Source of the DNA: Synechococcales cyanobacterium GL140_1_metabat_312
Lineage (GTDB): Bacteria; Cyanobacteriota; Cyanobacteriia; Leptolyngbyales; Leptolyngbyaceae
Assembly (NCBI GenBank): GCA_025351345.1
Contig: JANXWB010000083.1
Location: 1-33,650 of the forward strand
Length of the DNA: 33,650 nucleotides
Direction of reading: 5' to 3'
Each line of letters opens with the position of its first letter. Position 1 is the stretch's first letter. Shown here one piece after another: positions 31,117 to 32,887 of the stretch. Both the position numbers and the translations under genes were made by a program. The notes under the pieces were generated by a model. That model did not search any database, was not told the DNA's origin, and worked only from the letters and a program-made list of their open reading frames with translations.

Positions 31117-32721
31117 CTATTCACAAGCATATCGAATCAATTGACACAATCGTTGACGTAAGGTTTCCAAACCTAATCGATCGTATGCAGAGATAAACAA
31201 TGCCTGAGGATATTCGTCCTTTGCTTCCATCAGCCGATCGCCATCCACTTGATCCATTTTGTTGAATGCAATGATCGCCGGACCCGGTGAAATTGGTAAT
31301 TTTGACAACACATCCATCACCGATCGGATTTGACTTAACCATGCCGGATGAGACAGGTCCACAACATGCAACATCGCATCCGCTTCAGACACTTCCTCCA
31401 AAGTAGCGCGGAAGGCATCCATCAACGGCGGTGGCAATTCGTGAATGAATCCAACGGTATCGGTGAGTAGAATTTGACGATTTTCTTCAGTTTCAGCATC
31501 TTGAATTACTAATCGTCTTGTTGTTGGGTCTAGCGTTGCAAAGAGTTGATCTGCAGCGTAGATTTCGGAGTTAGTTAATGCGTTTACTAAGGTGGATTTG
31601 CCAGCATTGGTATAACCAACGATCGCAACACTTGGAACGCGCTCATGCTGCCGTTTTTGTCGGAGCCTCGTGCGGTGTTCTTGCAGGGAACTCACTTCGC
31701 GTTGCAGATTACTAATGCGTTGTTGAATCACCCGGCGTTCGGTCTCTAGTTTAGTTTCGCCCGGTCCTCTAGTTCCGATACCGCCCCCAAGTTTAGACAT
31801 GGATTTCCCGCGCCCAACCAATCTCGGCAACATATATTGCATTTGTGCGAGTTCAACTTGTAGTTTCCCGGCTCCCGATTGGGCGCGCTGGGCGAAGATA
31901 TCAAGAATGACTTCAGTTCGATCGATCACCCGAATGCCGATATTGTCTTCAAGATTACGACGTTGAATGGGAGCGAGATCTCGATCGAAAACAATTAGGT
32001 TTGCTCCAATAGTTTGGGCTACTAATGAAATTTCTTGGACTTTCCCTTCACCCACAACAGTCCGAGGATGAGGCCGCGATCGTTTTTGTCGCAACACTTC
32101 TAAAACTTCACCGCCTGCTGTTTCTACCAATCGTTTAATTTCTTCAATGCCATCTTGATAGCGTTGTTTGGTAACTTGATCAGTCTCTAATCCAACCACT
32201 AAAACCCGATCCCGATCGTCATCAACCGCCCGTGCAACAAATTGTCTTTGAAAGTCGGCCTCTAATTCTTCAACAAATTCAGTAAAGTGCTGGTCGAGCA
32301 TTTCCTCTAAACCCATCGGATTCGAGATTTGCCACGCGATTTCTGGGTGCGGCAGTAAATGACACCAGTAAGCTTCTTTGACATAGCCCGCGCCACCACC
32401 ACCTCGCTTTTGAAACCCACTGCCTGTCAATGTCAATACAACAAGTGAGTCGAGTCGCTGTACGGCCATAGCGGTAAGTGCGGCTTCGTTAGGCGGTTCC
32501 AGTTTGAGGTGGGTGGCGATGCAACGGATACCGCTGAGACGATCGGCTCCATAACGAGGCAGTTCTTTCGGTGGAATTTGGGTTTGACGCGGCGTACCGA
32601 CTCCGACTCGAATCACTTGGCCACGGCGGTTTACATAGGCGCAGATGGGTTCACCAATGTCGGTGCTGACGCTAGCAAGACGCTGGGCAAACTCGGGCGT
32701 GGTGACGCTATCGATCGGCAA
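31117..32721 (-). CDS. hflX: GTPase HflX
   Basis: HflX is a ribosome-associated GTPase that splits stalled or stressed 70S ribosomes. The N-terminal HflX subdomain (RQKRSRPHPRTVVGEGKVQEI, FDRDLAPIQRRNLE, VELAQMQYMLPRL, GGGIGTRGPGETKLE) and the G domain motifs (GYTNAGKST, DPTTRR, DTVGFI, FNKMD) are intact. The first canonical start is TTG at 32719-32721 and has no good ribosome binding site. The same frame stays open upstream to a stop at 32833 and reads ETIYGRPQGLKTSQIKKIQR directly before this point, which looks like the normal HflX N-terminus in cyanobacteria. The true start is therefore uncertain, probably an ATC or ATT codon near 32797, or a lost ATG. Confidence 0.93.
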   Translation of the reverse strand: MPIDSVTTPEFAQRLASVSTDIGEPICAYVNRRGQVIRVGVGTPRQTQIPPKELPRYGADRLSGIRCIATHLKLEPPNEAALTAMAVQRLDSLVVLTLTGSGFQKRGGGGAGYVKEAYWCHLLPHPEIAWQISNPMGLEEMLDQHFTEFVEELEADFQRQFVARAVDDDRDRVLVVGLETDQVTKQRYQDGIEEIKRLVETAGGEVLEVLRQKRSRPHPRTVVGEGKVQEISLVAQTIGANLIVFDRDLAPIQRRNLEDNIGIRVIDRTEVILDIFAQRAQSGAGKLQVELAQMQYMLPRLVGRGKSMSKLGGGIGTRGPGETKLETERRVIQQRISNLQREVSSLQEHRTRLRQKRQHERVPSVAIVGYTNAGKSTLVNALTNSEIYAADQLFATLDPTTRRLVIQDAETEENRQILLTDTVGFIHELPPPLMDAFRATLEEVSEADAMLHVVDLSHPAWLSQIRSVMDVLSKLPISPGPAIIAFNKMDQVDGDRLMEAKDEYPQALFISAYDRLGLETLRQRLCQLIRYACE

Positions 32722-32887
32722 TCGATCGTGATAAATCCGTTGAATCTTCTTAATTTGACTGGTTTTGAGTCCTTGGGGACGACCATAAATGGTTTCGATA
32801 CGCGACCTTTGCCTAATGCTACAGACCTCATTTTAGACGAAAATCTAAGCACTTCACCTCATAAGCATCAAGAATAATGAATGCCTT

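Follow-up and report, generated by a model that had tools for sequence, protein, structure and literature searches.

The hflX locus

The window, by which we mean the whole stretch of 33,650 nucleotides that was analysed, lies on contig 67 of its source genome (3.85 Mb). Its minus strand carries an hflX gene whose frame opens without a canonical start codon. The features that are needed for the following discussion are:

31117 to 32799, minus strand: hflX coding sequence from the proposed AUC start, 560 codons plus stop, assigned from its translation and from TIGR03156, PF13167, PF16360 and PF01926
32215 to 32799, minus strand: N-terminal domain of about 195 amino acids ahead of the HflX core, without Pfam match at E 0.001 or better; sequence matches in the PDB set in at residue 197
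32719 to 32721, minus strand: TTG, first canonical codon in frame, rejected as start (TTA in congener G001, CTC in congener G003)
32797 to 32799, minus strand: ATC, proposed start codon; ATC or ATA stands here in 210 of 214 aligned unique genes of the class
32806 to 32810, minus strand: AAAGG, weak Shine-Dalgarno-like sequence 6 nt 5' of the ATC, not kept in two congeners
32811 to 32822, minus strand: GTAGCATTAGGC, leader block kept within the genus; many members of the own family show a related GTYGCRTTWGGC
32815 to 32817, minus strand: ATT, six codons 5' of the ATC, rejected alternative start; a one-base indel lies between ATT and ATC in G001
32830 to 32835, minus strand: TAAAAT, kept within the genus; it would give a leader of roughly 25 nt if it is a -10 box
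32833 to 32835, minus strand: in-frame TAA stop, 12 codons 5' of the ATC, as read from the sequence

On the minus strand the frame reads TAA (32835-32833) AAT GAG GTC TGT AGC ATT AGG CAA AGG TCG CGT ATC (32799-32797) GAA ACC ATT TAT GGT, and the ATC is located directly 5' of the codons for ETIYGR. From the stop at 32833-32835 onwards, ATG, GTG and TTG are absent until the TTG at 32721-32719, which is the first canonical codon in the frame and codon 27 if the ATC is counted as codon 1. A previous sequence-only reading of this DNA had pointed out the frame lacking ATG, GTG and TTG up to this TTG as well as the ATC in front of ETIYG, and the sequence confirms both. Taken alone, the missing canonical start of the window is unremarkable, since a stretch of 37 codons is free of such codons by chance with a probability of (58/61)^37, about 0.16. 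What goes beyond chance is the conservation of ATC or ATA across the class and the coding constraint that begins at exactly this codon.

The product is HflX. TIGR03156 matches with 463.7 bits at a cut-off of 216.75, and PF13167, PF16360 and PF01926, representing the HflX N-terminal, middle and G domains, score above their cut-offs. In the predicted structure, residues 195-556 resemble ribosome-bound HflXr (8a57_D) with Z 33.2 and rmsd 3.0 over 343 aligned residues. For the N-terminal part of about 195 amino acids, we could detect neither a Pfam match at E 0.001 or better nor a PDB sequence match. Modelled alone, residues 1-195 reach a pLDDT of 84.1, while the full-length model is of moderate quality (pLDDT 71.8); a first helix at residues 13-23 is predicted in both. 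A fold search with residues 1-195 returned mostly JAMM/MPN (JAB1) proteins in its top rows, a weak resemblance with 5ld9_A as best row (Z 6.7, which is below 8, rmsd 3.8, 113 aligned). We saw no HxH metal motif in the HflX N-terminal domain. On the plus strand, a gene with a NurA domain (PF09376, 29848-31044) is convergent with hflX and ends 72 bases from the hflX stop. A DUF2809 gene (PF10990, 32888-33295) lies on the same strand as hflX, 88 bases 5' of the ATC.

The ATC is kept in congeners

Among three congeners searched, full hflX genes were found in G001, with a 99% identical protein, and in G003, with a 94% identical protein; G002, a 69% complete genome, gave no full hflX match. Both full genes have ATC at the same place, which answers the comparison of sister strains that the sequence-only reading had proposed. 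The first 30 HflX residues are identical in the window, G001 and G003, although the DNA differs.

The competing start codons of the window do not share this conservation. The TTG at 32721, which the list of open reading frames gives as first canonical codon, is TTA in G001 and CTC in G003. In G001 one base is missing 7-8 bases 5' of the ATC, by which the upstream ATT is thrown out of frame. Hence neither the TTG at 32721 nor the ATT at 32817 is the start, the former because it is not kept in the congeners and the latter because it is out of frame in G001. The sequence-only reading had considered initiation at AUC or AUU, a start-codon mutation that shortens the protein, and a sequencing error. 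Of these, initiation at a non-AUG codon stands, at the ATC that it had named (32797-32799). The AUU option (32817-32815) fails on the indel in G001, the closest relative. Orthologs that begin at the position of the TTG, which it had named as a refutation of its observation, are contradicted by the TTA and CTC at this position in the congeners. An error or a strain-specific mutation of an ATG, for which we see no argument beyond the rarity of such starts, is practically negligible as an explanation, because the ATC occurs in both congeners with full hflX and ATC or ATA in 210 of 214 aligned genes of the class.

Class-wide survey of the hflX start

Start regions were collected from 58 relatives, from 388 genomes of the class (308 matched at 1e-100), from 292 genomes of the phylum (134 matched at 1e-60) and from 80 named loci that were kept from 524 relatives in a scan of a genome collection. 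They were fetched for part of the 308 matching class genomes, and the total came to 269 rows. We dropped five rows with a paralogue or second copy (L064, L079-L082), five from outside the class (L138-L142) and five of family f2 with diverged N-termini (L143-L147). Of the remaining 254 rows, 28 were repeats. This leaves 226 distinct Cyanobacteriia hflX genes, 12 of which lack an alignment to residue 1 and are dealt with further below.

In the 214 aligned genes, the codon aligned to the ATC of the window is ATC in 136, ATA in 74, GTC in three and GTT in one. ATG, GTG, TTG and ATT were found at this codon in none of the 214. All four GTC/GTT genes have GTG, TTG or ATC one or two codons upstream, as expected if a lost start was compensated. 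ATC or ATA is present in 38 of the 41 families tallied, or in 37 if we leave aside f36, whose two ATC genes have an ATG just upstream; family f2 is not among these 41. The 80 named loci, largely Nostocales, contribute 55 ATA and 25 ATC. The counts overstate the independent evidence, owing to common descent among the genes and to a bias of the named loci towards Nostocales. In a tree of 106 N-termini the ATC rows are spread throughout, and the ATG rows, two out of seven of which come from outside the class, need five changes. Given the few columns and 53 of 103 inner branches left open, this tree shows only that ATC rows occur across its whole extent. We conclude from these alignments that the main hflX orthologue of the sampled Cyanobacteriia as a rule has an apparent AUC or AUA start, and that this start is probably ancestral in the class.

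Start codon or conserved isoleucine

A codon that is nearly always ATC or ATA could also be a conserved isoleucine codon inside a longer protein. In 146 of the 210 ATC/ATA genes, there is no ATG, GTG or TTG back to the in-frame stop. This stop lies within five codons in 66 of them and within two codons in five. The next canonical codon downstream follows in this set after a median of 40 codons. ATT makes up most of the isoleucine codons at residues 2-93 of these genes (839 ATT, 531 ATC and 120 ATA, total 1490), while codon 1 is never ATT. With genes related by descent, the absence of ATT at codon 1 does not amount to 214 independent draws.

Selection on the protein sequence begins at the ATC. 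In 101 genes, no canonical start occurs between the upstream stop and the end of codon 25. Their pN/pS is 0.134 at codons 2-25 and 0.162 at codons 26-90, compared to 1.08 for the eleven codons upstream, and the shifted frames give 1.76 and 3.41. The mean amino-acid identity rises from 0.39 at codon -1 to 0.81 at codon 2 and 0.89 at codon 3; codons 2 and 3 serve for this comparison, since the identity of codon 1 is 1.00 by construction in a set chosen for ATC/ATA.

These data bear on the remaining readings of the window. A shortened HflX from the TTG at 32721 or from a canonical codon further in is hardly conceivable. It has in its favour the place of this TTG in the frame, and would require that codons under protein-type selection (2-25) are not translated, that the starts of the 146-gene set are displaced downstream by a median of 40 codons, and that the first predicted helix (residues 13-23) is lost. 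The same selection, together with the lack of conservation of the TTG, argues against the shortened protein of the sequence-only reading. Very improbable, too, is translation that enters from upstream and reads the ATC as an ordinary isoleucine codon, be it from the ATT at 32817-32815 or by a frameshift from an upstream AUG. In favour of such entry are a GAGG 8 nt 5' of the ATT and, opening a different frame of the window, an ATG at 32831-32829. This ATG is present in G003 but absent in G001, where the indel also falls between ATT and ATC. Five genes have a stop no more than two codons from the ATC/ATA, and the upstream codons evolve with a pN/pS of 1.08. The congeners, the class counts and pN/pS reject all five alternatives: a start at TTG 32721 or at ATT 32817, an error of sequencing, a local mutation, and entry by frameshift.

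Control genes behave differently. All 120 loci of infC, obg, lepA and der (30 each, same genome set) have a canonical codon no further than 20 codons upstream of the conserved N-terminus. Under the same rule, 92 of the 269 hflX rows have such a codon and 177 have none. As a base-rate control, we compared reciprocal best hits over 400 kb of two genomes, which yielded only 24 orthologous pairs. The crude rule flagged eight of the 24: three shadow frames of longer open reading frames, four genes with a canonical codon 4-10 residues in, and hflX. In the hflX pair there is no canonical codon for 54 residues, of which 53 are identical. Shadow frames aside, hflX is the sole pair of the 24 in which the conserved N-terminus has no canonical codon close by. 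An hflX paralogue begins with ATG at four loci; the second HflX copies of four own-family genomes (L079-L082), 57-59% identical, open with ATG GCN ACN in place of ATC GAN ACN.

Some genes provide counter-evidence. A canonical codon is present upstream and in frame in 64 of the 210 ATC/ATA genes, in 31 of them at codon -2 (for example GTG CCT ATC), and these upstream codons could be the used start there. Also on this side stands the window's own leader, in which neither a good Shine-Dalgarno sequence nor a stable hairpin is present. Taking all of this together, we consider the assignment of the hflX start to AUC/AUA very likely to be correct. Initiation would then actually take place at AUC or AUA, with methionine as residue 1.

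Lineages with other starts and genes outside the class

Canonical starts do occur in individual lineages. ATG is found in f21, in one f34 gene and in four f36 genes, two of which still have the ATC right behind it. L122 has a GTG before a retained ATC. Both f16 genes have TTG, and the five f2 genes that were looked at have GTG or TTG. ATT starts are found in two f22 genes and perhaps in L129. The use of ATG, GTG, TTG or ATT by some lineages indicates that the weak start is dispensable. L047, L114 and L176 show no clear start. In L114 (genome G371), the 5' region of hflX contains an in-frame TAA near the expected HflX N-terminus.

In other parts of the phylum, only five hflX genes were found that match from the first residues. 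L138 has AGGAGG and ATC, and L139 has GAGGAGG and ATT. L141 has GGAGG before ATT, with ATG and GTG just upstream, and L140 and L142 have ATG. Judging from these few sequences, hflX may already have had a non-AUG start at the root of the phylum.

Leader sequence and initiator tRNA

AUC and AUA are weak starts, because the CAU anticodon of the initiator tRNA mismatches their third base. The bases around the start suggest how this weakness may be compensated. The consensus directly before the hflX start is GCCU. U at position -1 is present in 189 of 210 genes (107 of 127 non-redundant), compared to 27% in the leaders as a whole and to 57 of the 120 starts of the control genes. This U could form a pair with A37 of the initiator tRNA. 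A search with one loop pattern found the initiator tRNA loop CTCATAA in 48 of 58 genomes, and all 51 matches have the CAU anticodon and A37; ARAGORN called tRNA-Met (cat) in four of four loci checked. None of the 51 loop-pattern matches is a variant initiator tRNA reading AUC; as 10 of the 58 genomes gave no match, a divergent second initiator tRNA may still exist.

Two arrangements of the Shine-Dalgarno sequence are found in the class. In non-redundant leaders without a called hairpin, Shine-Dalgarno cores begin at -18 to -9 in 44 of 79, with a peak at -15 to -10, whereas shuffled leaders give a mean of 9.2 and a maximum of 14. The other arrangement has a stem between core and start. A five-pair stem, G-U allowed, that ends 9-11 nt before the start occurs in 46 of 125 leaders. 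Swapping the arms between genes gives 23.1 (sd 3.8, max 34), so about half of these 46 hairpin-type leaders may be due to chance. Within the 46, a core is located 5' of the hairpin at -36 to -24 in 21 (shuffled mean 8.2, max 15) and at the normal -18 to -9 in seven. The signal becomes clearer with stems of five Watson-Crick pairs: they are found in 20 of 125 leaders and in 4.0 after arm swapping (sd 2.0, max 10.2, 300 trials). When the stem was placed at five other distances, fewer leaders had one (1, 6, 6, 2 and 2). Compensatory changes are seen in the arm pairs GGCCA/TGGTC, GATCA/TGATC, GACTC/GAGTC and GACCC/GGGTC. We tested covariation by arm swapping because the MAFFT alignment of the leaders is poor owing to variable loop lengths. 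Folding of single leaders gives weak values for most, with z < -2 in two of eight. Rfam models at gathering thresholds had no match in ten loci.

The simplest reading of these patterns is that the hairpin brings an upstream Shine-Dalgarno sequence to working distance of the start in some lineages. T4 gene 38 has a hairpin that brings its Shine-Dalgarno sequence and start effectively closer together. Several hflX leaders are built in a similar way; they differ in that the hairpins precede a non-AUG start and carry compensatory changes across genera. The window leader does not contain this element. Its minimum free energy is -4.1 kcal/mol (z 0.56), and no stable hairpin ends 9-11 nt before the start. 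The only Shine-Dalgarno-like sequence there is AAAGG at 32810-32806, which is absent from the congeners; the enrichment of Shine-Dalgarno cores is seen in other lineages.

The leaders of the own family show a further pattern. Many of them (L001-L030) contain TAAAAT or TAGAAT followed by GTYGCRTTWGGC at about -25 to -14 before the ATC. In the window, TAAAAT at 32830-32835 resembles a -10 promoter box. A sigma-70 scan of the window returned zero promoter-like sites. The motif and GTYGCRTTWGGC are possibly a promoter together with the 5' end of a very short leader.

A probable weak start and a possible role of IF3

The explanation that we favour, and hold to be highly probable, is that hflX of the window is translated from the AUC at 32799-32797, that such a start is the rule in the class, and that it is a weak start which seems to be compensated. 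Compensation would come from the conserved GCCU context with its U at -1, and in many lineages from a Shine-Dalgarno sequence at normal spacing, in others from an upstream one bridged by the hairpin. The weak AUC/AUA start would hold HflX at a low level. This suggests that the AUC/AUA start is an old and overlooked brake on HflX production.

How this brake is operated is less clear. HflX splits stalled 70S ribosomes, as described for E. coli HflX, and IF3 keeps the subunits apart (PMC9067457). By rejecting codons such as AUC and AUA, IF3 could control hflX, and HflX output would rise when IF3 on 30S subunits becomes limiting. By analogy to known IF3 targets, we give this step of hflX control a chance that is close to even and slightly below it.

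The analogy is drawn from a few systems. The infC start is ATT in E. coli and ATC in Streptomyces, and IF3 autoregulates infC (PMC5472188); in S. aureus the infC start is AUA (PMC13009471). infC encodes a translation factor and starts at a codon of the AUU/AUC/AUA class, which we propose for hflX too. The difference is that the gene here is hflX, for which regulation by IF3 is a proposal. Streptomyces sigR, with a GTC start repressed by IF3, is a stress-response gene held down by a non-canonical start, as we propose for hflX, and had been misannotated to a nearby canonical codon (PMC5472188). It is a different gene with a different codon, and GTC or GTT is found in only four of 214 hflX genes. 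Staphylococcal ccpN (AUA) and cvfC1 (AUU) are described as conserved non-canonical starts with extended Shine-Dalgarno pairing (PMC13009471); they differ from hflX, whose conservation spans a class and which has in some lineages a hairpin between Shine-Dalgarno sequence and start.

A simpler possibility is that the AUC/AUA start, though used, does no more than limit HflX to a scarce level as a fixed throttle, with the level of IF3 or free 30S carrying no signal. We regard this as a real though minority possibility. Weak starts cut the yield: AUU or AUA reporters of S. aureus reached about 10% of the AUG level in poor medium, and ccpN up to 30% in rich medium, in the experiments reported there (PMC13009471). 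A pure throttle also permits the replacement by GTG, TTG or ATG that is seen in some lineages. The absence of ATT in 214 genes, however, suggests a specific requirement. In addition, repression of such codons by IF3 is described as established in E. coli and Streptomyces (PMC5472188), so an hflX without IF3 sensitivity would be surprising.

The IF3 reading can be extended to a translational sensor that is common to the class, a proposal that we put forward tentatively and would rate as somewhat less than evenly likely. Here, 30S subunits without IF3 would raise HflX via AUC/AUA, and ribosome splitting by HflX and anti-association by IF3 would be kept in balance. The job that infC autocontrol does in E. 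coli would have moved to hflX, the arrangement of Shine-Dalgarno sequence, hairpin and start would add extra control in some lineages, and the AUC/AUA start of hflX may date back to the ancestor of the phylum.

If the start assignment is true, cyanobacterial HflX annotations are likely misplaced and gene finders must allow AUC and AUA; if the IF3 step is true as well, IF3 links ribosome rescue to the fidelity of initiation. Only a few genes with a start kept non-canonical over long evolution are known. Among the open-licence PMC papers listed by our searches, none reported a non-AUG hflX start. The proteogenomic study of Nostoc sp. PCC 7120 lists eight revised genes with ATA or ATT starts, and the word hflX is absent from its main text (PMC8557916).

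Cyanobacterial infC itself has an ATG, GTG or TTG available within 20 codons in 30 of 30 loci (L310-L339), in contrast to the AUU/AUC infC of other bacteria. The autocontrol of infC through its start codon may therefore be absent in these organisms, which would leave hflX as the gene that responds to IF3. In 13 of 58 genomes, IF3 has a second, weaker match.
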